The translations under genes were made by a program, and so were the position numbers. Shown piece by piece: positions 5,457 through 64,000 of a DNA stretch of 64,000 bases (positions are counted from its first letter, which is position 1; every line of letters starts with the position of its first letter). Under the pieces are notes generated by a model. It was not told the DNA's origin. It worked only from the letters and a program-made list of their open reading frames with translations, and ran no database searches. Source of the DNA: Pempheris klunzingeri. Its lineage: Eukaryota; Chordata; Actinopteri; Acropomatiformes; Pempheridae. Where the stretch lies: positions 22,469,662-22,533,661 of the forward strand of contig NC_092031.1 in assembly GCF_042242105.1 (NCBI RefSeq), in the 5' to 3' direction.

Positions 5457-8400
5457 TCAGTCCACGTACATAGGAGAGATGGGGGAGGCGGGGATTTGAT
5501 CCAGGATGCGACATACGTAACTGGCGACGTCCACGAAACGCTCCTCGTACATCAGGATGAAGGGTTGTTTCTGGGGGAGAGACACAGTGAGCTTCAGGCT
5601 GATTGCGTGTCACGCTGCGGAGCTCAGTGCAGTCATAAAAACAGCAGTAGCTACGTGTACATGGACCCTCATGTTCCACTGATAATTGGGATGACAGCAC
5701 AGGCGGAGTAAAAATGCCTCATGTGAGCCTAGCGATCATGTCAACACTTATTCCGATCACTTCTCTCTAATGCATTTCTACCTGTGCATGCTTGGCGCAT
5801 GAGGAGGTGATAGTGACATCTCTAATATGAAAGATTCCACTTGGACTGAAAAAAAATATTGTCCATGTAACCGCGGCTGCTGATGGCAAAATAGATTCAA
5901 GCAATCACAGTTGCTGTTCCTGACATCCCAGCTAATTTGGTGTAAGGCAGGGGTGTCCAAACTACGGCCCGCGGGCCAATTTTCATTGGCCCGCAGGAAA
6001 TTCTAAAAATGTATTGTAACACGGCCCACACATGGAACTTGTGCTGGACTGTATTGTACTTCTTAGTGTCACCACTAGGTGGAGTAACTGTCTTGAATGA
6101 GGCAGCTTCTCTATAAAATGAGTAATAGAAGAAGAAATGTGCCACAGGTGACCCAAAATGGCAGAATTAAGGAAACGTAAGAGAGCAAGTGAGTGTAGAA
6201 AGTTTGAGACGCGGTGTGTGATGAGAGCACAGCTAATTACTAATGAAGATCACTTTTGCATTACGGAGGAGCTGCTGGATGTTAGCAGTCTAAAGAGCAC
6301 CACGACGGGTGAGGATGTTTCTGAAGCTGTGCCAGATGCAGTTGGCATGATCGGACTTAAATGGGACGAGCTGTGTGGAGGTACGACGGATGGGGCTCCA
6401 GCTGGGACAGGAGAGCGCAAAGGAATCTACGGTGTCCGCAGAGGGGCAAGAAAGTGGAGGTAAGACTGTTAATTCGAGCACCAGGGCTCTAGCACAGACT
6501 ATTTCAAGCTTCCCTCTCTGATGCTGATGCTGATGCTGATGCTGGTGCTGGCTAAGTTGTGGCTCTGTGCTGCAGCGGTTTTATTCCCTGAGATCAAAAA
6601 TGGACCAGTTTTGAAGCGAGAAGGAGCTCTTCATGAGCTCAGTGATCCTCTCTGGTTGGCATTTTTAGTGGATCTCACTGATCACTTTAACACCCTGAAC
6701 AAGAGCCTACAAGGCAAAGAGCAGCTTGTACCACAACTAATAAATGAAAGGCCACTAATGGAAAGGCTGTATTTTTTCTTGAATCATATTCAGTTATCAA
6801 GCAGAATTTACCTACATTTGATTGATTTTGCCAACTTTAATCCACTAGAGGTGAGGCGATATACATCACCTCTAGTGGATTAAAGTTAGCAGCATAGCTC
6901 ACTTCTAGTGAGTGGCCCAGCCCTTTGTTTGTTTTTCTGTATGTGGCCCTCAGTGAAAAAAGTTTGGACACCCCTGGTGTAAGGTATATCCTAAAACATG
7001 GCTGGTTAGATAAGAAGTCCTACATGGATGTAGCAGAAACACTGATGTTAGAGGTGGCAAAAAATAGAAAAGCTAACCTTGTATTTTGCTTAAATTTAAA
7101 TCTGCATAGATTTTTCTTTTAAGAAGAACCAGCAAACACAACGCTGACATACCATTGCCATAAATGCCATAAATTACTATGGTGTTAGCAACCATTTACG
7201 CGTCCTTGTAGCTTTGTTTTGGTCCCTACCAATTACAGTCATCTGATGAATTGTTTACGGGAAAATATTTGAGTGCAGCTTTAAAAAGCCTGGTTACTTT
7301 AATGTCAGTTCAGGGCCCTTTTAAACACACTGGACACCGGCACTGAGACACAGATAACACGTTCGTGTGCTCGATCTGCAGTGACTGACTAGTATGTTAA
7401 AAAAAAACATTCCAAGAACTCACCAGAAGCTCCTTGTACTTTGGCCTTTTTGATTCATCCTTTGTAAGGCTGAAGAGAAAAAGAACAAAACTCCATGTTA
7501 CCACCATGTGTGTACCAGGAAGGTAGAAATACTCAGAAACGCTACTGAGTGAGCGTGCAGCTCATCTAGGTTTAGCTTACAGCTCATTTAACTATTTCAA
7601 TTCCAACCAACACAAACTGGTCCATACAAAGTCCTTATTTGGTAAAAGAAGTAACACTTGTCATATCACCAAACAAACCGATAAATAACTCAAAGAACAC
7701 AACTGTGTTTGAACTACACTCTGAGAGATCATTTCAGGAAAACTCGTTATGAAAAAGGGCCACTTAATATTTCTATCTGGAGCTTTTTCAAGCTCTTCAT
7801 AAGCAAGTGTCTTTTGCTCAGTTGCCATGGAGATGGCTCTGTTGTACACTGAGCAGACTTTCAAATAATGAAGACTATGACGTGTCTGAAAGCTCTAGAA
7901 GTAAGCTAGTAAGTGGGTCTTTTTCTAAGGCCACAAAAGAATTTTCACTCTGTTTCTGTCGTTTTCAGTACTAAAAGGATGTTGGTGGTGTGTTTCACAC
8001 TGTAATACTGCACTGACTGTAACGGGGCTTACCATAGGTTAACAAAGTTGATGAACTTGGGGGAGAACTGCCTGTCCTCTGAGTCGTTGAGCTGTGGGGG
8101 CTCGCCTTTCACCACCTGTGTCAGCTGATCGAAAACACTATTCCACTTGGGGTAAGGAAACCTTCCCGTGGCCAGCTCGTACTGAAAGCAAACACAAACC
8201 AGCCACTGTGACGGGCTTCCCCTACTGCGACGGCTGTCGATTCAAACTTAACAAAAAGACACAACGAAAGGTGAGATCTCGTGTTGGCAGTATTTGTCTT
8301 ACCAGGGTGATTCCCAAACTCCACACGTCAGACCGGACGTCATAGCCTTGTCTGGAAGCACTGGGGTCTATCCTTTCGGGCTGAGACACACACACACAAG

Positions 8401-45729: not shown

Positions 45730-46510
45730 AATACTTGTAGTCATCGCACAGCAGCAGCAGCATCGATACGCACGTCACCAAATACAGAAAATTGCTGTGT
45801 GCATTTTAGGCACGTGGCACAGCCGCGGTTAGTGCATTAATCACTGAAATATTTCTACAGGACAGGATCAGACAGCACAGATCTGAAACTGACTGTCAGG
45901 GGTTTTGCTGTTAAACACGTTCCAAATGTTTTCCTCCAATAAAGCATTTGGAAGATGGAAGTTGTCCTCAGGATGAGACCAACCCCATCACAGCTGGACA
46001 TAGAAAAAGAGATGTGTGTATATAAGGGAGGAAGAACCCCACCACCTCCCCAGACCTCCACCCACAGAGCAGAACCTCTGCTATGCCAGACTGGAGATCA
46101 GCCACCTTAGGCAGCAGTTCTCCAGCAGATGGCAGCAGACTTGGCCTCTGCCGAAGCAGCTATCCTCCAGCTAGAAGGGAGCAGTCTGACTTCTGTGCTC
46201 TACATGACTGGAGGTCACCTGCTGGGTGCAGGAGTGCCCAGTGTGCTGAAGATGCAGCACACTGGGCCTCTCTGCAGTAGCAGCTGATCTGATCAGCCTG
46301 GAGCAGAAGCTCAGACTGGCAAGCTCAGAACCTTAGAGCTGTCCAGCTTTCTCCTCTGTGGGAGGAGGTCTGAAGCTGGAAGCTCACCGTGGGTCCTATT
46401 TACAAACTTCTGTCCCCACACTGGACATGTCATCAGTATGATGTCACATTCTGTATTATGACACACACAGTATGATGTCACATACAGTACTTTACTGTGT
46501 ATTTGATATT

Positions 46511-46704
46511 CAGAATCAGAATCAGAATCAGAATTACTTTAATATTACACACAGCTCAAAAAGAATAAGAACAAGAATACACTTCAAACACAAAGTAAAA
46601 TATAAATATATAAAAGTATGAATTAAAAAAAAAGATGTATTAAAAATTATTATTACAAATTATTACACAGAGGTAAATTACTGCACCAGGTGAGTCCAGA
46701 GTCT

Positions 46705-46745
<41 letters not shown>

Positions 46746-47640
46746 CACTACTAATAATACTACTAATAAAAATATATAACAACATGCACAATCATAGTAA
46801 GGCGCTGTACTATATAATACCAATAATACTACTACCACTACTACTACCACCAACAATAATATATAACAACATGTACACTCAGAGTGAGGCGCTGTACCAT
46901 ATTATAATAATAATAATAATAATGATACAAATAATACCACTACTACTAATAATAATATATAACAATGTGTACCTTCTAAGTGAGGAGATGTGTTATATAA
47001 TACTACTACTACCACTACTACTACTACTACCAACAATAATATATAACAACATGTACACTCAGAATGAGGAGATGTATTATATAAATTATAATAATAATGA
47101 TAATAATAATAATGATGATAATAATAATATAAAATATATACAACAACATGTACACACAGAGTGAGGAGCTGAATCATATAATAATAATAATGATAATAAT
47201 AATAATAATAGTAATAACATACAACAACATCAGAGTGGGGAGTTGTATAGATTAATGGCCACAGGCAGGAATGATTTCCTGTGGCGCTCTGTAGTGCATC
47301 GTGGTACAATTAGTCTGGCCCTGAAAGAACTCCTGTATCTAACCAGCACTTCATGGAGTGGGTTGGACACATTGTCCAAAATAGCTCCCACTTTGTGAAG
47401 CACTCTCCTCTCTGACACCACCGTCAGAGAGTCGAGCTTCACTCCCACAACGTCACTGGCCCTGCGGATCAGTCTGTTCAGTCTATTGACATCCTCTACC
47501 CTCAGCCTGCTGCCCCAGCATACCACAGCATAGAACATAGCACTGGCTACCACAGACTCATAGAACATCCTGAGCATAGTCCTGCAGATGTTGAAGGACC
47601 TCAACCGCCTCAGAAAATACAGACGGCTCTGGCCCTTCCT
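46511..47640 (-). mobile_element. 5'-truncated LINE in copy A
   Basis: The minus-strand frame 47604-47230 (124 aa) is a LINE reverse transcriptase C-terminus: SFNICRTMLRMFYESVVAS, VVCWGSRL, RLIRRASDVVG, then RHRKSFLPVAINLYN. Downstream on the minus strand are a long ATA-rich array and a (TTCTGA)n 3' tail (plus-strand CAGAATCAGAATCAGAATT at 46511-46529). Only the 3' end of the element remains. The exact family is not assigned. Confidence 0.72.
46705..47219. repeat. Composite minisatellite/microsatellite in copy A
   Basis: (AAT)n, (ACT)n and (ATA)n tracts alternate with about six degenerate copies of a 30-40 bp motif related to AACAACATGTACACTCAGAG. The motif resembles the adjoining LINE 3' UTR (ACAACAACATCAGAGTGG), so the array probably grew from the element itself. 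Confidence 0.8.
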
Positions 47641-49159: not shown

Positions 49160-49241
49160 GTTGTTGTGGCCGAGTGGTAAAGGCGATGGACTCGAAATCC
49201 ATTGGGGTCTCCCCGCGCAGGTTCGAATCCTGCCGACAACG
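49160..49241 (+). tRNA. tRNA-Ser(CGA)
   Basis: An 82-base cloverleaf. The acceptor stem GTTGTTG pairs with CGACAAC (one U-G pair). The A box is TGGCCGAGTGG, the anticodon loop CTCGAAA has anticodon CGA (reads UCG), there is a class II variable arm GGGGTCTCCCC, the B box is GGTTCGAATCC, and the discriminator is G. One usual D-loop base differs (GGTAAA instead of GGTTAA), and there is no clear run of four T within about 40 bases downstream, so it could be a weakly expressed or non-functional copy. Confidence 0.85.
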
Positions 49242-54510: not shown

Positions 54511-55485
54511 AATACTTGTAGTCATCGCACAGCAGCAGCAGCATCGATACGCACGTCACCAAATACAGAAAATTGCTGTGTGCATTTTAGGCACGTGGCA
54601 CAGCCGCGGTTAGTGCATTAATCACTGAAATATTTCTACAGGACAGGATCAGACAGCACGGACCTGAAACTGACTGTCAGGGGTTTTGCTGTTAAACACG
54701 TTCCAAATGTTTTCCTCCAATAAAGCATTTGGAAGATGGAAGTTGTCCTCAGGATGAGACCAACCCCATCACAGCTGGACATAGAAAAAGAGATGTGTGT
54801 ATATAAGGGAGGAAGAACCCCACCACCTCCCCAGACCTCCACCCACAGAGCAGAACCTCTGCTATGCCAGACTGGAGATCAGCCACCTTAGGCAGCAGTT
54901 CTCCAGCAGATGGCAGCAGACTTGGCCTCTGCCGAAGCAGCTATCCTCCAGCTAGAAGGGAGCAGTCTGACTTCTGTGCTCTACATGACTGGAGGTCACC
55001 TGCTGGGTGCAGGAGTGCCCAGTGTGCTGAAGATGCAGCACACTGGGCCTCTCTGCAGTAGCAGCTGATCTGATCAGCCTGGAGCAGAAGCTCAGACTGG
55101 CAAGCTCAGAACCTTAGAGCTGTCCAGCTTTCTCCTCTGTGGGAGGAGGTCTGAAGCTGGAAGCTCACCGTGGGTCCTATTTACAAACTTCTGTCCCCAC
55201 ACTGGACATGTCATCAGTATGATGTCACATTCTGTATTATGACACACACAGTATGATGTCACATACAGTACTTTACTGTGTATTTGATATTCAGAATCAG
55301 AATCAGAATCAGAATTACTTTAATATTACACACAGCTCAAAAAGAATAAGAACAAGAATACACTTCAAACACAAAGTAAAATATAAATATATAAAAGTAT
55401 GAATTAAAAAAAAAGATGTATTAAAAATTATTATTACAAATTATTACACAGAGGTAAATTACTGCACCAGGTGAGTCCAGAGTCT

Positions 55486-55526
<41 letters not shown>

Positions 55527-57208
55527 CACTACTAATAATACTACTAATAAAAATATATAACAACATGCACAATCATAGTAAGGCGCTGTACTATATAATA
55601 CCAATAATACTACTACCACTACTACTACCACCAACAATAATATATAACAACATGTACACTCAGAGTGAGGCGCTGTACCATATTATAATAATAATAATAA
55701 TAATGATACAAATAATACCACTACTACTAATAATAATATATAACAACGTGTACCTTCTGAGTGAGGAGATGTATTATATAATACTAATAATACTACCACT
55801 ACTACTACTACCACCAACAATAACACATAACAACATGTACACTCAGAGTGAGGCGCTGTACCATATTATAATAATAATAATAATGATACAAATAATACCA
55901 CTACTACTAATAATAATATATAACAACGTGTACCTTCTGAGTGAGGAGATGTGTTATATAATACTACTACTACCACTACTACTACTACTACCAACAATAA
56001 TATATAACAACATGTACACTCAGAATGAGGAGATGTATTATATAAATTATAATAATAATGATAATAATAATAATGATGATAATAATAATATAATATATAC
56101 AACAACATGTACACACAGAGTGAGGAGCTGAATCATATAATAATAATAATGATAATAATAATAATAATAATAATAATAGTGATAACATACAACAACATCA
56201 GAGTGGGGGGTTGTATAGATTAATGGCCACAGGCAGGAATGATTTCCTGTGGCGCTCTGTAGTGCATCGTGGTACAATTAGTCTGGCCCTGAAAGAACTC
56301 CTGTATCTAACCAGCACTTCATGGAGTGGGTTGGACACATTGTCCAAAATAGCTCCCACTTTGTGAAGCACTCTCCTCTCTGACACCACCGTCAGAGAGT
56401 CGAGCTTCACTCCCACAACGTCACTGGCCCTGCGGATCAGTCTGTTCAGTCTATTGACATCCTCTACCCTCAGCCTGCTGCCCCAGCATACCACAGCATA
56501 GAACATAGCACTGGCTACCACAGACTCATAGAACATCCTGAGCATAGTCCTGCAGATGTTGAAGGACCTCAACCGCCTCAGAAAATACAGACGGCTCTGG
56601 CCCTTCCTATAAAGGGCATCAATGTTTAATTCAATTGTTTAATGTGGTTTGGATGTTTTTATTCCTACCCTTTGGAGGTGGGTTTCTTCCTGCGGTAGTC
56701 ACCTCTCCTGGTTAAACCTCAGGCTCACTTTGGCTTCTTTAAGACTTCAGGTCTTCCAAATGATTAAAAATGTACACTTAAGAGGAAGAAATGAACTGAA
56801 ACAGGTTCAGTCACCACCTTGTAATTAAAACAGTTATTAAAACAATATTCCAGTTAATACCAAACAACATAACATAATAACAATATTCAGATAGTAATAT
56901 TTCAAAATGTAAAATAAATGTATTATTATCTATTTGATCTATTTTTGAGAGAATGAAAGAATTGCATGAAATCAGGTCACATCTTTGTGATTCTGTTTTT
57001 AACCAAAATTAAACATAAATGTCAGAAATGAACTATTTTTAAAATCAATTTGTTGGCGGTGACATGATGAAGACCAGCATGCAGTAACTTTCTCGTGGCC
57101 TCTTTTACATCCTGACAGTTGAGAAATCTACTTTTTTAAAGCAAAGGATCCTTCTGTCTATTTCAGGACAATACAAATGAACTTCAATTATTTTCTATAC
57201 TGAATCCT
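54511..57208. repeat. Subtelomeric duplication, copy B (2,698 bp)
   Basis: Near-identical second copy of 45730-48240. It is 187 bp longer, almost entirely because of extra units in the minisatellite core (an additional block around 55745-55930). Left edge: the broken tRNA. Right edge: direct join to inverted telomeric repeats, with CCT shared at the junction. Confidence 0.92.
55292..56608 (-). mobile_element. 5'-truncated LINE in copy B
   Basis: The same element as at 46511-47640. Its 124-aa reverse transcriptase tail (56572-56198) differs by one residue near the C-terminus from copy A (NLYNPPL for NLYNSPL). It was duplicated with the host segment rather than inserted independently. Confidence 0.72.
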
Positions 57209-57228
57209 AACCCTAACCCTAACCCTAA
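57206..57228. repeat. Inverted interstitial telomeric stub (CCCTAA)n
   Basis: About 3.5 CCCTAA hexamers on the plus strand, opposite to the terminal TTAGGG array. They form the boundary between copy B and the telomere-associated mosaic. Confidence 0.9.
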
Positions 57229-57406
57229 TTTCCTTTGCTTTACGGGTTGGTATAAACGTTTTTTCTTTTTCCTTCTTTTCCAGTTGTGGTTTTTCCGGTG
57301 TGGATTGACGTTGTGATTTCTCCTCCGGGCTAAGGTAAGTTTTCAAGGTAAGTGATATTTAAAGTTTAAGGAAACGTTAGGGTTTAGGTATGCATAAGGG
57401 TTGGTT
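57229..57406. repeat. Telomere-associated repeat 1, first copy
   Basis: A 178-bp block starting TTTCCTTTGCTTTACGGG and ending TGCATAAGGGTTGGTT, repeated almost perfectly at 57810-57988. It contains AGGTAAG-type donor-like sites and telomere-like TTAGGGTTTAGG. Confidence 0.9.
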
Positions 57407-57511
57407 AGGTGTTAGAAATTCTCTCGATGACTCCCCCCACCTCGTCTGACGACTTGGCAGTTGAAAATGGGGAGCCAAAGGCAGGGCACGGGCCTACGCA
57501 CGTCGCAATAT
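57403..57511. repeat. Telomere-junction repeat, inner copy
   Basis: About 109 bp containing CTCTCGATGACTCCCCCCAC and GGGCCTACGCACGTCGCAA, present again at 62691-62800 with one single-base length difference. The outer copy abuts the terminal array. Confidence 0.93.
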
Positions 57512-57540
57512 CTCTCTTTTCCCGTCTATTTTTCCTCAAC

Positions 57541-57795
57541 AGGTTTGGTAAGTGTATTGGTTTCTTTCTCTTTCTCTTTTACAGGTTTTTGGTTTTCAGG
57601 TGAGTATCCTTACTTTCTTTTCTCCCTTATAGGTTTTGGTTTTCAGGTAAGTATCGTTATTCTCTTTTTCCTTTTCAGGTTTTTGTTCTTCCGGTAAGTG
57701 ACGTTATTTATTCTATTTTTCTGGTAAGTAACGCTGTTTTTTGTTTAACCTTCTTTATCTAGGTTTAGGTCTTAAGGTGAGTGGAGATAATTATG
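57541..57795 (+). repeat. Splice-site-like minisatellite
   Basis: Five degenerate units of about 45-55 bp. In most of them a pyrimidine-rich stretch and AG precede a short G/T-rich core (for example GGTTTTGGTTTTCAG), followed by a donor-like GTAAGT or GTGAGT. On the plus strand it reads as a chain of acceptors and donors around 15-base 'exons'. No protein is encoded. Confidence 0.65.
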
Positions 57796-57809
57796 TCTAA
57801 TCTGAAAAA

Positions 57810-57988
57810 TTTCCTTTGCTTTACGGGTTGGTATAAACGTTTTTTCTTTTTCCTTCTTTTCCAGTTGTGGTTTTTTTCGGTGTGGATTGACGTTGTGATT
57901 TCTCCTCCGGGCTAAGGTAAGTTTTCAAGGTAAGTGATATTTAAAGTTTAAGGAAACGTTAGGGTTTAGGTATGCATAAGGGTTGGTT
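57810..57988. repeat. Telomere-associated repeat 1, second copy
   Basis: Near-identical to 57229-57406; it differs by an extra T or two in the poly-T stretch and then diverges into telomere-like GGTTAGGTTTAGG sequence. Confidence 0.9.
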
Positions 57989-58169
57989 TGGTTAGGTTTA
58001 GGGCAGGTTCCTGACTTGGCTTTAAACCCCGAATGGTTAAGGTCAGGGCTAGGGTGGGGATAGGCTTAAAAATTGGTGATTTTGACGGTCAAATAGGGTT
58101 AAACGTTGGAGAACGAAGTGGTTAGGTTTAGGCGTTGAAAAGGGTTAGGGTTAGGTGAAGTGGATTGAA

Positions 58170-58189
58170 CCGCCTCCCTAAGGAGACGG
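58170..58189. other. Hairpin in unit 1
   Basis: CCGCCTCC-CTAA-GGAGACGG: an 8-bp stem with one mismatch and a 4-base loop. It is the counterpart of the perfect hairpin at 59045-59066. Confidence 0.7.
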
Positions 58190-58529
58190 AGGTGCACGGT
58201 CCTTCAACACGGCAAGCCTGCTGGGACGTCCTTTTTGACTTTCATTTTCCTTTTTTAGGCTTATTTCTCATTGTTTTTGTTTTCCTATTGTCCTGTTCTT
58301 AGGTTCTTTTGGTTTTTTAATTTGAAATTTGAAATTTTTTAAGTCCAATTAGTTAGGCTTCTTTTTCTTTAATTAGTTAGGCTATTTTTTATCCCATTTT
58401 GGGCTTTGTTATCCATTATTTAGGTTTTTAATTGTTTTTATAAATTATTTATTAAGTTATTAATACTTCTATTAAATTAAATTCAAATCAAATCAAATTT
58501 AAATTAAAACAACTCCCCAAATAAACCCT

Positions 58530-58581
58530 GTGCCTCTTGCGCGACGTTTCGGGTTCTTTTACCCTTCTTCAGGCTAGGCAC
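58530..58581 (-). ncRNA. Hammerhead-ribozyme-like motif 1
   Basis: On the minus strand: GTGCC (stem I), CTGAAGA (fits core CUGANGA), stem II GGGT/ACCC closing AAAAGA, GAAA, then CGTC (U16.1 and cleavage-site C17), and GGCAC closing stem I; a GC/GC pair adjoins the core. Stem III is only the palindrome ACGT, so a monomer could not close it. Short hammerhead variants with palindromic stem III that act as dimers are known from Penelope-like retroelements, and this fits that class. One extra A sits between the core and stem II. Activity is not shown. Confidence 0.6.
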
Positions 58582-59044
58582 ATCTTAAAAAACCCATGAA
58601 TTTAGCTCTGAGATGTTTCCACCTCAGAGATCCCCGGCCGAATGAACAACTAAAGCTGCTTCCCTATTTATAGGTTCCGCCTATTTTGGCTTTTTAGAAA
58701 CTCTTTTTAGTTTATCCAATTTGGCTTTTAGTTGTTTTAACCCTATAAATGCTGCTTGTTTTTAACTATGAACTATTTTAGCCTATTTTTACTCTGTTTT
58801 TAAATATTTTAAGCCTATTTATTAATTTATTAATTAAATTTTTAATGTTAATTTAATTTTTTAATTTTTAACTTAAGTAAATTAATTAATTAATTAAATT
58901 ATATGGTTAGGGTTAGGGAAACTTAGAGGGTAAGGGTTTAAGATTAAGGGAAGGAACTTAGGGTTAGGGTTAGAAATAAAATTAAGTGGTTAGGGTTAGG
59001 GCTAGGGTCTGGGTTAGGGTTAGGGTTAGGGGAAGGCGAATGAG

Positions 59045-59066
59045 CCTGTCTCCCGAAGGAGACAGG
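59045..59066. other. Perfect hairpin in unit 2
   Basis: CCTGTCTCC-CGAA-GGAGACAGG: a 9-bp perfect stem with a 4-base loop. Kept with small changes in unit 1. Confidence 0.8.
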
Positions 59067-59371
59067 AGGTGCTCGGTCCTTCCTCCAGGCTGGTCTCCCT
59101 CCCCGGTCCCCGGACCTCCGTTGTTGGGCAGGCCGCCTTCCACGGCGCACCCGCGTCCAGCGGCCTCTATCGGCCATGGTCGTTTTTAATTTGTATTTAT
59201 TAATGTAGTCTTTGTTATTTTTTTAATTAAATTTCAATAAAAAGATATGAATTAAATTTATGAATTATGTTAATTTTACTAAAATATGAATTATCAAATA
59301 AATCAAATCAAATTAAATCTCTATGAAATTAAATTTTTATGAAATCAAAATTATCCAAACTATTTAAATAA

Positions 59372-59422
59372 TGTGCCCAATGCGACGTTTCGACTATTAA
59401 AGTCTTCTTCAGGCAGGGCACA
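59372..59422 (-). ncRNA. Hammerhead-ribozyme-like motif 2
   Basis: The same architecture on the minus strand: TGTGCCC/GGGCACA (7-bp stem I), CTGAAGA core, stem II GACT/AGTC closing TTAAT, GAAA, ACGT palindrome and the GTC cleavage triplet. Compared with motif 1, stem II changed on both sides (GGGT/ACCC to GACT/AGTC) with pairing kept, while the core bases are identical. This covariation is the main support for a selected RNA fold. Confidence 0.62.
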
Positions 59423-59990
59423 AATTGAAAAAAAACACTGGCTGCTATGGTCCGTCAGCTTTGCTCCAGAGATGTTGTCTCTTCGAAAGTAAGCTTCAGA
59501 ATGAAGGCAGTATACTATGAGTTTTATTTATACCTGCCTAAATTGCGCCTTTTTTACAATTTGGTTTATTTTAAAAAATAACTTAAATTTAAAACCCATT
59601 CTCTACTTTTAAGATATTAAATTACTAAAATGAATTAAAGCTTTTAATCTTTTTGTATTTTAACTATTTATTATTACATTTTAACTTGTTTAATATTTAT
59701 GAATTTTTAAATTGTTTTTTTATTAATGTAAGTAATTTGAATTTCGTATTAATTGTTTTTACAGCTAATTTATTAAACTAATTTTTATTAATTCAATTTT
59801 AATTCTCCAAATTAATTTAAGTAATGAATTTTAACCTAATTAATTTTTTAATTCTCCAATTTTATTCAAATTTATGTATTTTTGCCAATTTAAATTTTAA
59901 ATTCTCTAAATTAATTCCTACTCATGAATTATCAATTTTACCTATATCAATTTGGATTTAATTCATTATTTATTTTTAATTAATTAATTA

Positions 59991-60369
59991 AGGGTTAGGG
60001 TTAGGAAGGAAATGGAAAAGGTTAAGGTTAGGGTTAGGAATGGTTAGGGTTAGGAAAGATAAGGTAGGAATGGTTAAGGTTAGGGTTAAGGTAGGGTTAG
60101 GGTTAGGAAGGGTTAGGGTTAGGAGGGGTTAGGGTTAGGAAAGGTTAGGGTTAGGAAAGGTTAGGGTTAGGCATAGAATAGAGGATGGTTAAGGTTAGGA
60201 AAAGGGATGGGATAGGGTTAGAATAGATAGGAAGTGAAAATTAAGGGTTGGAAAGGTTAGGGTTAGGATCAAGGTTAGGGCCAGAATAAGGATTGGAGTT
60301 AAGGTTAGGGTTAGGTAAGATTAGGGTAAGGATGGGTTAGGGTTAGGGTTAGGGTTAGGGTTAGGGTTA
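59991..60369. repeat. Degenerate telomere-like repeat field
   Basis: TTAGGG units are interspersed with GGAAAGG, GGAATGG and similar variants, becoming perfect toward 60334. Typical of ageing telomeric DNA or telomere-associated satellite. Confidence 0.8.
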
Positions 60370-60828
60370 GGGTTAGGTAAGGGGGGTAATAACCACGATC
60401 ATCAAATTTGATGGTCCTGTTTTTGGGTGATAACTCCCGAACCGTTGGAGGTAGAGAGCTGAAAGTGGGTGGTACCCCCCCATTTCCATAGGCTGTCTTT
60501 CGTTTGGTGGGTCCCCCTAGTGGCTGTGACGTCGGGAAGTGGGCGTAAGTAGCGAAAAAAAGTTTGTTTTTGTTGTATCTCCGGAAGGGAAGGTCGTAGA
60601 GAGACGGGACCAAGCCTGGCGTGTTCAGAAGGGCCGAATTATGGCAGGCGGAAGTGGTTTGCAAAGCGCTAGGAGGTGTGGTTTTAAAGTTATAGGCGTT
60701 TGAAAATTCCCCATAGAGTTGAGTGAGGTGAAATTTTTCAAAGTGTTTTTTTGCAAAAAGTTCCCCCAGAAAGTGTTTAGGAGCGCGTTTCAGGCCATTT
60801 GGAGTTGATTGGAGGGTGTCCTGGAGAG
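60370..60828. repeat. Telomere-associated block 2, copy 1 (truncated)
   Basis: Starts AAGGGGGGTAATAACCACG, contains CCCCCTAGTGGCTGTGACG and runs to TGTCCTGGAGAG, where it is cut by TTAGGG repeats. It shares its full length with copy 3 and its 3' 320 bp with copy 2. The minus strand carries an open frame (60664-60311) that recurs in all copies, but its C-terminal part is translated telomere repeat. Origin not recognised. Confidence 0.85.
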
Positions 60829-60892
60829 TAGGGTTAGGGTTAGGGTTAGGGTTAGGGTTAGGGTTAGGGTTAGGGTTAGGGTTAGGGTTAGG
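60829..60892. repeat. Interstitial (TTAGGG)n tract
   Basis: About 10 perfect hexamers in the same orientation as the terminal array, between block 2 copies 1 and 2. Confidence 0.95.
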
Positions 60893-61705
60893 TTATATGA
60901 TGAAAACTGATATGGGTACCCCTACCCATGAACTTCATGAGCCGATAAGTCCGGATAGGAGGGTCCTAGAGTTTTGGAGTTGGTGCCTACCCCCCGTACC
61001 CATGGCATGCTGAATCGATGGGTGGCACCCCCTAGTGGCTGTGACGTCGGGAAGTGGGCGTAAGTAGCGAAAAAAAGTTTGTTTTTGTTGTATCTCCGGA
61101 ACGGAAGGTCGTAGAGAGACGGGACCAAGCCTGGCGTGTTCAGAAGGGCCGAATTATGGCAGGCGGAAGTGTTTTGCAAAGCGCTAGGAGGCGTGGTTTT
61201 AAAGTTATAGGCGTTTGAAAATTCCCCATAGAGTTGAGTGAGGTGAAATTTTTCAAAGTGTTTTTTTGAAAAAAGTTCCCCCAGAAAGTGTTTAGGAGCG
61301 CGTTTCAGGCCATTTGGAGTTGATTAGAGGGTGTCCTGGAGAGTGTTTTTTGGAAAAGTGGCCGTCCAGTAGTTGGCGCTGTGGAGCTGCAATCCTAGGG
61401 TGGGGTAGCTTGGCTTAAGGGGAGCCTAGGGGTGGTTGAATGGTGTTGGTGGGACATTCCTAGGGCGAGTTATGTTGAAAAGTTGCATTGACTATAGTGA
61501 GTGAAAATTTGCACAAGTGTTTTTTGTCCCTAGGTGTTTCCAGGAAGTGCCTAGGGGTGCATTTGAGGCCATTTGGAGTGGATTGGGGGGTGTTTTGGAG
61601 TTGATTGGAGGGTTGTCTGGGGGGTGTTTTGGAGTGGATTGGAGGGTGTTCAGAGGGTGTTTTTTGCTAGGGTTAGGGCTGCACTAAAGGAGTGTGGTTA
61701 AGGTA
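60893..61705. repeat. Telomere-associated block 2, copy 2
   Basis: It has a different first 130 bp (GATATGGGTACCCCTACCC and following) but from about 61028 matches copies 1 and 3. It continues through GTGGCCGTCCAGTAGTTGG to GGGCTGCACTAAAGGAGTG, as copy 3 does. Confidence 0.85.
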
Positions 61706-61756
61706 AGGGTTAGGGTTAGGGTTAGGGTTAGGGTTAGGGTTAGGGTTAGGGTTAGG
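61706..61756. repeat. Interstitial (TTAGGG)n tract
   Basis: About 8 perfect hexamers between block 2 copies 2 and 3, in the same orientation as the terminus. Confidence 0.95.
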
Positions 61757-62585
61757 TAAGGGGGGTAATAACCACGATCATCAAATTTGATGGTCCTGTT
61801 TTTGGGTGATAACTCCCGAACCGTTGGAGGTAGAGAGCTGAAAGTGGGTGGTACCCCCCCATTTCCATAGGCTGTCTTTCGTTTGGTGGGTCCCCCTAGT
61901 GGCTGTGACGTCGGGAAGTGGGCGTAAGTAGCGAAAAAAAGTTTGTTTTTGTTGTATCTCCGGAAGGGAAGGTCGTAGAGAGACGGGACCAAGCCTGGCG
62001 TGTTCAGAAGGGCCGAATTATGGCAGGCGGAAGTGGTTTGCAAAGCGCTAGGAGGTGTGGTTTTAAAGTTATAGGCGTTTGAAAATTCCCCATAGAGTTG
62101 AGTGAGGTGAAATTTTCCTAAGTGTTTTTTTGAAAAAAGTTCCCCCAGAAAGTGTTTAGGAGCGCGTTTCAGGCCATTTGGAGTTGATTGGAGGGTGTCC
62201 TGGAGAGTGTTTTTTGTAAAAGTGGCCGTCCAGTAGTTGGCGCTGTGGAGCTGGAATCCTAGGGTGGGGTAGCTTGGCTTAGGGGGAGCCTAGGGGTGGT
62301 TGAATGGTGTTGGTGGGACATTGCTAGGGCGAGTTATGAGGAAAAGTTGCATTGACTATAGTGAGTGAAAATTTGCCCAAGTGTTTTTTGTCCCTAGGTG
62401 TTTCCAGGAAGTGCCTAGGGGTGCATTTGAGGCCATTTGGAGTGGATTGGGGGGTGTTTTGTAGGGTGTTTTGGAGTTGATTGGAGGGTTGTCTGGGGGG
62501 TGTTTTGGAGTGGATTGTAGGGTTATTTTGGGGTGTTTTTTGCTAGGGTTAGGGCTGCACAAAAGGAGTGTGGTTAAGGTAAGGG
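61757..62585. repeat. Telomere-associated block 2, copy 3
   Basis: Head as in copy 1 and tail as in copy 2, so it is the most complete copy (about 830 bp). It is followed by TTAGGG variants with TTAGACTCAGGC interruptions (62600-62690). Confidence 0.87.
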
Positions 62586-62690
62586 TTTTGTAGAGGGAGA
62601 GCTTAGACCTAGGGTTAGACTCAGGCTTAGGGTTAGGGTTAGGGTTAGGGTTAGGGTTAGACTCAGGCTTAGGGTTAGACTCAGGGTTAG

Positions 62691-62800
62691 GGTTAGGTGT
62701 TAGAAAATTCTCTCGATGACTCCCCCCACCTCGTCTGACGACTTGGCAGTTGAAAATGGGGAGCCAAAGGCAGGGCACGGGCCTACGCACGTCGCAATAT
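62691..62800. repeat. Telomere-junction repeat, outer copy
   Basis: Near-identical to 57403-57511. Its last bases GTCGCAATAT join directly to AGGGTT of the terminal array. Confidence 0.93.
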
Positions 62801-64000
62801 AGGGTTAGGGTTAGGGTTAGGGTTAGGGTTAGGGTTAGGGTTAGGGTTAGGGTTAGGGTTAGGGTTAGGGTTAGGGTTAGGGTTAGGGTTAGGGTTAGGG
62901 TTAGGGTTAGGGTTAGGGTTAGGGTTAGGGTTAGGGTTAGGGTTAGGGTTAGGGTTAGGGTTAGGGTTAGGGTTAGGGTTAGGGTTAGGGTTAGGGTTAG
63001 GGTTAGGGTTAGGGTTAGGGTTAGGGTTAGGGTTAGGGTTAGGGTTAGGGTTAGGGTTAGGGTTAGGGTTAGGGTTAGGGTTAGGGTTAGGGTTAGGGTT
63101 AGGGTTAGGGTTAGGGTTAGGGTTAGGGTTAGGGTTAGGGTTAGGGTTAGGGTTAGGGTTAGGGTTAGGGTTAGGGTTAGGGTTAGGGTTAGGGTTAGGG
63201 TTAGGGTTAGGGTTAGGGTTAGGGTTAGGGTTAGGGTTAGGGTTAGGGTTAGGGTTAGGGTTAGGGTTAGGGTTAGGGTTAGGGTTAGGGTTAGGGTTAG
63301 GGTTAGGGTTAGGGTTAGGGTTAGGGTTAGGGTTAGGGTTAGGGTTAGGGTTAGGGTTAGGGTTAGGGTTAGGGTTAGGGTTAGGGTTAGGGTTAGGGTT
63401 AGGGTTAGGGTTAGGGTTAGGGTTAGGGTTAGGGTTAGGGTTAGGGTTAGGGTTAGGGTTAGGGTTAGGGTTAGGGTTAGGGTTAGGGTTAGGGTTAGGG
63501 TTAGGGTTAGGGTTAGGGTTAGGGTTAGGGTTAGGGTTAGGGTTAGGGTTAGGGTTAGGGTTAGGGTTAGGGTTAGGGTTAGGGTTAGGGTTAGGGTTAG
63601 GGTTAGGGTTAGGGTTAGGGTTAGGGTTAGGGTTAGGGTTAGGGTTAGGGTTAGGGTTAGGGTTAGGGTTAGGGTTAGGGTTAGGGTTAGGGTTAGGGTT
63701 AGGGTTAGGGTTAGGGTTAGGGTTAGGGTTAGGGTTAGGGTTAGGGTTAGGGTTAGGGTTAGGGTTAGGGTTAGGGTTAGGGTTAGGGTTAGGGTTAGGG
63801 TTAGGGTTAGGGTTAGGGTTAGGGTTAGGGTTAGGGTTAGGGTTAGGGTTAGGGTTAGGGTTAGGGTTAGGGTTAGGGTTAGGGTTAGGGTTAGGGTTAG
63901 GGTTAGGGTTAGGGTTAGGGTTAGGGTTAGGGTTAGGGTTAGGGTTAGGGTTAGGGTTAGGGTTAGGGTTAGGGTTAGGGTTAGGGTTAGGGTTAGGGTT
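62801..64000 (+). repeat. Terminal telomere array (TTAGGG)200
   Basis: 1,200 bp of in-phase TTAGGG hexamers without a visible variant, reaching the window edge. The G-rich strand runs 5'->3' outward, as expected for the right end of a vertebrate chromosome. Real telomere length is unknown because the window (and perhaps the assembly) stops here. Confidence 0.99.

Follow-up and report, generated by a model that had tools for sequence, protein, structure and literature searches.

Two hammerhead-like motifs beside a fish telomere probably belong to Penelope-like elements directed to chromosome ends

Close to the end of contig C20 of the fish Pempheris klunzingeri lie two short motifs that resemble hammerhead ribozymes. 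Their position raises the question of what kind of element they belong to, and whether the ribozyme-like fold takes part in bringing that element to a chromosome end. One assembly of 646 Mb in 439 contigs was examined; the window is the final 64 kb of C20, and positions refer to it unless a contig is named. C20 ends at base 22,533,661, which is also the end of the window, and the preceding 1,200 bp are perfect TTAGGG, which bears out the closeness to a telomere proposed in a first-pass annotation. The features around the motifs are as follows.

58529..58584, minus strand: hammerhead-like motif 1, family A, stem II GGGT/ACCC (core pattern and covariance models); predicted cleavage after the C at 58543
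59372..59424, minus strand: hammerhead-like motif 2, family B, stem II GACT/AGTC (core pattern and covariance models); predicted cleavage after the C at 59384
58149..58905, minus strand: unit A, a pLTR-type unit of family A with TATA box, hammerhead and 3' stem-loop
59024..60000, minus strand: unit B, a pLTR of family B with its CCTAACC end at 59024
58666..58672, minus strand: TATAAAT, 100 nt upstream of core 1
59526..59532, minus strand: TATAAAT, 120 nt upstream of core 2
58170..58189, minus strand: 3' stem-loop of unit A with one U-G pair, directly upstream of the CCTAACC end
59045..59066, minus strand: 3' stem-loop of unit B, CCTGTCTCC/GGAGACAGG, directly upstream of the CCTAACC end
59990..60380, minus strand: degenerate telomere-like tract 5' of unit B (by eye)
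57402..58142, minus strand: 5'-truncated fragment of PLE12, an 11.8-kb telomeric Penelope-like element (PLE), reference 7357-8097, stopping at the common internal site
57227..57410, minus strand: PLE12 fragment, reference 7507-7690, which does not stop at the common site and is followed by inverted telomere repeats
62691..62800, minus strand: PLE12 fragment, reference 7987-8096, adjoining the terminal TTAGGG array
60380..62560, strand not assigned: subtelomeric satellite, with matches at 10 of the 12 further ends that were read
62801..64000, plus strand: terminal TTAGGG array (repeat content, end of contig C20)

Elsewhere in the window, one tandem-repeat block is present in two copies ~8.8 kb apart (46434-47217 and 55215-56178), and a tRNA gene lies at 49160-49241 (Rfam, 64.3 bits).

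The two cores (58543-58572 and 59384-59412, minus strand) are the sole matches to the pattern CTGANGAN{8,30}GAAACGTC in the 64 kb, and 100 shuffles gave none. Both carry the type I hammerhead core CUGANGA...GAAA...NUH, apart from an extra A between CUGAAGA and stem II, a feature of every one of the 13 aligned copies. An additional A after CUGANGA also occurs in a viroid hammerhead. The elements CTGAAGAAG and CGAAACGT are unchanged across the same 13 copies. Stem II differs between the two minus-strand motifs just as first described (GGGT/ACCC and GACT/AGTC). Stem I had been described as growing from 5 to 7 bp and this needs correction, as both motifs have an outer helix of 7 bp (UGUGCCU/AGGCACA versus UGUGCCC/GGGCACA, one compensatory change) with a further 2 bp beside the core, read from the alignment. 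The loopless ACGT stem III was rightly noted: GAAACGUC leaves a self-complementary ACGU without a loop, which can form a helix only between two copies.

Covariation was measured on an alignment of 13 copies (two from the window, ten from other chromosome ends and one from C5:28.98 Mb; nine distinct rows), which left out four dispersed copies, the chance matches L003 and L004, the truncated copy L030 and near-duplicates. Stem II occurs in four forms, GGGT/ACCC, GACT/AGTC, GGCTCC/GGAGCC and GCAGC/GCTGC. Cells were paired in the named structure at 93.6%, versus 79.4% when shuffled and 12.7-44.5% when slid. Eight of 14 pairs change on both sides, and none of 500 shuffles was as high on any of five measures. 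The further copies thus yielded the compensatory changes that the first-pass annotation had asked for, with the qualification that in family D four of the seven outer stem-I pairs fail as aligned. This pattern argues that stems I and II have been maintained by compensatory change across four families.

A covariance model that included the window motifs in its build (R1) scored them at 73.3 and 62.3 bits, the next match reaching 13.2. A second model (R2), built from eight rows with no family-A row and no window row, also finds both (63.2 and 57.0 bits; next 11.7), with E-values of 1.4e-17 and 1.4e-15 against 0.48 for the next best, values that are rough owing to a short calibration. The Rfam models gave no hammerhead, either at gathering score across the window or, on 57500-62800, with the limit relaxed to E 5, so that the covariance-model check suggested at the outset succeeded with R2 and not with Rfam. 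Rfam hammerhead models expect a formed stem III. Two other weak Rfam matches in the window were dismissed as chance. Viral and prokaryotic matches to the core pattern (25 stretches; at least 118, of which 80 became loci) were likewise read as chance, the model reaching at most 26.6 bits over 45 of 105 loci; on the fetched fish loci the same model gave 54 to 80 bits in 36 of 38 matches, the other two being one motif split by a stretch boundary. Both window motifs are confirmed as hammerhead-like in their predicted fold.

The sequences surrounding the two motifs are related to each other. The alignment of units A (58131-58905) and B (59010-60000) spans most of both units and scores 119.5, against at most 51.5 for 100 shuffles of one of them, and on the minus strand both run in the same order: AT-rich sequence, TATAAAT, hammerhead, AT-rich sequence, GC-rich stem-loop, CCTAACC and telomere-type repeat. 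Unit A ends at the CCTAACC at 58149; its other limit at 58905 is our own cut, and the shared leader goes on 5' of it. In families A, B and C the core is preceded, 100-120 nt upstream, by TATAAAT or TATAAAA, and no such TATA box was found within 260 nt of the core in family D. Tandem transcripts must be assumed, because full pLTRs carry sequence upstream of the TATA box. The stem-loops by the 3' end are CCGTCTCC/GGAGACGG in A and that listed above in B, both by folding, and CCTGCTCC/GGGAGCAGG in C, by eye; comparison of the arms across the three families indicates that length changes are matched on both arms. A GC-rich hairpin beside the telomere repeats was considered as a separate RNA and rejected, since the complete element described below places the family-B hairpin at the start of ORF1.

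Unit B is the same module as both pLTRs of a complete element at C5:28983401-28992400 (L034), and this agrees with the Penelope-like origin proposed earlier. This element has a period of 5,210 bp and consists of a pLTR with hammerhead, ORF1 (634 residues), ORF2 (740 residues; reverse transcriptase and GIY-YIG) and a pLTR; the first pLTR is of the unit-B type, and a degenerate telomere-like tract, which the window tract at 59990..60380 resembles by eye, lies between ORF2 and the second pLTR. ORF2 matches GIY-YIG at 6.4e-11 and RVT_1 at 4.7e-5. ORF1 has no Pfam match and is 37% identical over ~185 residues to the GDSL-like end of ORF1 of PLE12. The latter is an 11.8-kb sister family with a weak GDSL-lipase match in ORF1 (0.0019, below cut-off) and matches to RVT_1 (7.7e-6) and GIY-YIG (3e-7) in ORF2; the two RVT_1 scores, 26.2 and 23.6 bits, both lie below the Pfam cut-off of 29.6. 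A phmmer search of ORF2 against solved structures found nothing. Both relatives combine reverse transcriptase and GIY-YIG in one ORF and show pLTR and tandem or partial-tandem structure, as expected of PLEs, and the suggestion of an endonuclease-lacking PLE must be dropped. No match to the relatives' ORF2 reverse transcriptase was found within the 64-kb window. The ORF2 frames (L032:9571 onward; L034) have no ATG near their start and overlap the end of ORF1; expression by frameshift or re-initiation may perhaps be involved.

The 752-residue ORF2 frame of PLE12 was found in at least 17 full-length copies without stops and at ~100% identity; groups of three or five account for 14 of these. At least 13 copies are on C1-C24, ten near ends and three at C5:29.0 Mb; these counts are lower bounds, 60 of 206 candidates having been scored. 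PLE12 units are spaced at 11,777-11,785 bp at the C22 left end and at 12,002 bp at the C5 right end, and no hammerhead was detected over the whole period (best 8.0 bits). A third element, of 5.33 kb, combines a family-D hammerhead with an 860-residue frame that has an ORF1-like end (32% identity over 164 residues) and shows no match to ORF2; the C11 left end carries another, 5'-truncated copy in contact with the telomere array, followed by a tandem row of five such units. Judged from positions alone, the order hammerhead, reverse transcriptase, hammerhead occurs again 14-20 kb from the C18 right end and ~86-91 kb from the C22 left end. Degenerate telomere-like tracts of their own, beyond the CCTAACC box, are present in all three element types (L032, C11 left, L034). 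On the short contigs C89 and C163 a 996-residue frame, which shows 49% identity with the telomeric reverse transcriptase, occurs in groups of four, for the most part spaced at 7,107 bp. On C11, an open frame proximal to the PLE array (C11:58853-59953; L014:8853-9953) matches a herpesvirus-tegument N-terminal Pfam model at 4.7e-15.

Across the whole genome the loose core pattern gave 202 matches versus 57 for a reversed control, and the pattern of families A-C gave 48 versus 0. The 100-kb zones next to chromosome ends, 0.77% of C1-C24, contain 43 of the 47 A-C copies on C1-C24, spread over 24 ends, and all 43 have the sense strand pointing away from the telomere. Of the four exceptions, one is at C15:13.24 Mb and three are at C5:28.98 Mb, a site 0.82 Mb from the end that includes the complete element. 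Family D, with 44 exact copies (reversed control 0), behaves similarly: 27 of its 28 copies on C1-C24 are near ends, at 12 ends and in one orientation (27/27), the exception being at C17:7.04 Mb. Families A-D jointly occupy 27 of 48 ends, and at the C13 right end family A forms an array of four copies at 1,590-bp spacing, noted in comparing it with retrozymes, small non-autonomous units that give circular RNA. A subtelomeric array in a fish, as first suggested, is therefore a recurrent arrangement in this genome. RAG1 is present, and among solved structures it matched 3jbw, from zebrafish, best (1,100 bits), ahead of a chain named mouse RAG1 (988 bits), in keeping with a ray-finned host. The proposed tie between ribozyme and telomere holds in part: the A-D motifs cluster near ends, but PLE12 is telomeric without a detectable hammerhead, and a dispersed hammerhead family with GCCTC-type stem II has one of 30 copies near an end (the 30 picked by eye from ~100 places, with some variants omitted). 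Otherwise telomeric elements, namely the family-D hammerhead and PLE reverse transcriptases, also form interior clusters, at C17:7.03-7.05 Mb and at C5:28.98-29.61 Mb; these are perhaps former chromosome ends, fusion points or assembly misjoins.

The 3' ends were examined with probes that spanned the end point, from 100 nt before it to 80 nt beyond, matched to 16 stretches; a fuzzy junction search gave many telomere-like false matches, and these boundary-crossing probes were used instead. From 65 probe alignments, 38 stop at CCTAACC (family A 7, B 13, PLE12 12, 5.33-kb element 6), which are not 38 independent events because exchange among subtelomeres may have copied some junctions, C12R and C4L having a composite in common. 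Another 21 pass through, being internal, tandem or cross-family, and six were set aside: one cut by the stretch end, four short ones ending at 100-102 and one wholly beyond the end point. Except in the stretch-cut alignment, no other stop point was seen within the probe, whose upstream reach is 100 nt. Telomere-type repeats, scored by hexamers, follow 30 of the 38 junctions; the other eight lack them. Terminated PLE12 pieces end at 8096-8097 in 12 of 13 cases, the exception being the piece at 57227-57410, which ends at reference 7690.

The box CCTAACC is the complement of the telomeric overhang, and within the elements it is an internal point. It is continued as CCTAACC-GGCCAGCGCC inside ORF1 in family B, CCTAACC-GGCCAGTGCC in family A, CCTAACC-ATTGCCAGCGCC in PLE12, at a point 111 nt short of the first ATG in the ORF1 frame, and CCTAACC-CTGCCAGAGCC in the 5.33-kb element. 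In this last element, of family D, the 3' end comes ahead of the next tandem unit's hammerhead, which is not so in A-C. After CCTAACC, GCCAG(C/T/A)GCC was observed in all four families with an internal copy (L034, L032, C5 left, C11 left), with GGNCCGNGC before the CCTAACC point, and this may possibly be the protein-binding part of the RNA.

The 5' ends are scattered. Ten readable PLE12 pieces have nine different starts, with the C5 left and window pieces both at 7357, although exact starts shift slightly with BLAST settings owing to internal repeats in the region; several PLE12 5' ends stand directly against CCCTAA repeats. In unit B, internal 5' ends fall at about 583-587, 608, 741, 907 and 950, and none of these five lies at the predicted cleavage point, 618. 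From the combination of a fixed CCTAACC, telomere repeats and scattered 5' ends we infer reverse transcription primed by the chromosome end, of which it would be the signature.

Taken together, the data make it highly probable that both motifs are the hammerhead parts of two protein-less, pLTR-type copies of telomere-directed PLEs that would have been attached through CCUAACC priming. The element RNA would be transcribed from the telomere side inward, and its internal CCUAACC, beside the stem-loop, would anneal to the chromosome's single-stranded ...GGTTAGG-3' terminus. The reverse transcriptase encoded by the element would begin at CCUAACC and copy the upstream RNA. Priming at this box would leave the element in antisense on the G-rich strand, its 3' end facing inward, which is the arrangement observed. 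Incomplete copying would leave 5' truncations, and telomerase would afterwards re-cap the chromosome end; two pieces of a telomerase RNA-binding domain on C16 suggest that the host probably has telomerase. Tandem copies would yield multimeric transcripts, and the hammerhead probably serves to trim these; two hammerheads may act together, paired at the ACGU stem III. The hammerhead would not be the telomere-targeting part, because the telomeric sister PLE12 has no detectable hammerhead.

The same junctions could be read differently. The GIY-YIG endonuclease might insert the elements into pre-existing TTAGGG repeats, in the manner of TRAS/SART, without attachment to a free end, and GIY-YIG is indeed present in both ORF2 types tested, one of them open and ~100% identical in at least 17 copies. 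Telomere repeats on the inner side of 30 of 38 3' junctions are predicted by insertion and by end attachment alike. Repeat-free joins to another truncated element, however, come about more easily by end attachment: at C2R unit A is joined to a unit B broken inside its hammerhead, at C20R PLE12 to PLE12, and at C2L a family-C unit to PLE12. The related lizard PLE enzyme, moreover, favoured AT-rich DNA in the cited part of its description (PMC11167929), and we regard insertion into standing repeats as rather unlikely. It is still less probable, and in our view quite improbable, that this is an ordinary subtelomeric satellite whose motifs spread by recombination between ends without recent retrotransposition. 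A satellite common to 10 of 12 other ends read, tandem arrays of near-identical units and the PLE12-unit A composite common to C12R and C4L would all suit exchange, but recombination alone gives neither one fixed 3' end in four families nor scattered 5' ends, and does not explain open ORF2 frames in at least 17 copies.

A further doubt concerns the hammerhead itself, which might be a relic that has kept its motif and lost cleavage. No 5' end was seen at the cleavage point, telomeric PLE12 manages without a hammerhead, and the core contains one additional A; in the experiments cited (PMC11167929), insertion in vitro did not need the lizard PLE hammerhead, and no reads began at its cut. Against this stand the compensatory changes in both stems between families with diverged surroundings, and CTGAAGAAG and CGAAACGT, invariant in the aligned copies, so that we consider loss of cleavage unlikely.

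Telomere-directed PLEs with hammerheads that would cleave, the reading preferred here, have several known counterparts. Hammerheads in PLEs and telomere-attached, endonuclease-deficient PLEs are known, as far as the cited passages go (PMC6155905, PMC6431247, PMC7229834). In those on the Terminons and Athena PLEs of bdelloid rotifers (PMC6431247, PMC5408684), likenesses to the fish elements are a PLE-type reverse transcriptase, hammerhead motifs, GDSL-type ORFs, a 3' junction with telomere repeats in reverse complement, copies cut short on the 5' side by telomere repeats, and head-to-tail arrays. The rotifer elements are described there as endonuclease-deficient, some with stand-alone GIY-YIG-like ORFs, and up to 40 kb long (PMC6431247, PMC5408684), whereas the complete fish element is ~5 kb, has GIY-YIG fused to the reverse transcriptase and a telomere-like box that is an internal site in or before ORF1, and resides in a vertebrate host with TTAGGG. 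The fish elements share the 3' telomere junction and uniform orientation, yet are not classed as Athena/Terminon members because their GIY-YIG is fused to the reverse transcriptase.

The Anolis Penelope/Poseidon element PAc, in the sections cited (PMC11167929), likewise has reverse transcriptase and GIY-YIG in one ORF, a tandem pLTR, a hammerhead near the ORF start and, likewise near that start, reverse transcription initiated within the RNA at a stem-loop, for which the first 172 nt of the ORF are required. PAc is reported there to have a single ORF and a preference for AT-rich DNA (PMC11167929); the fish elements differ in the CCTAACC start site, a second, GDSL-like ORF and their telomeric location. 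Minimal PLE hammerheads are, in the cited descriptions, also of type I with helix III reduced or absent (PMC6155905, PMC7229834). Families A and B differ from them in keeping a 7-bp outer stem-I helix with an internal loop, and in the extra A before stem II, though the two are set apart by descriptions and the differences may not be real.

No hammerhead or GIY-YIG is known in the silkworm elements SART and TRAS. These, of the non-LTR class, resemble the fish elements as retroelements directed to telomeric repeats (PMC7265360). In lake sturgeon a GIY-YIG PLE also lies beside telomere-like repeats in a fish; these PLEs are degraded neighbours of an integrated herpesvirus, with no telomere targeting or hammerhead reported in the cited portion (PMC12031113).

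As far as the literature was searched, the combination of a vertebrate host, an endonuclease-bearing PLE and a telomere-complementary internal end point common to several families is new; no vertebrate telomere-directed PLE was found in the open-licence literature, and a report elsewhere is possible. PLE reverse transcriptases have been described as relatives of telomerase (PMC6431247, PMC3846280). Tentatively, several PLE RNAs might serve as long telomerase-like templates, with the PLE enzyme adding kilobase blocks, telomerase and an endonuclease-bearing retroelement jointly building chromosome ends, and the hammerhead cutting multimers. The start box, the stem-loop and the hammerhead can each be tested separately. 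A fused endonuclease together with a telomere-complementary internal end suggests a direct path linking ordinary PLE insertion with the addition of telomeres, and this path would sit in a vertebrate that also has a telomerase-type domain.
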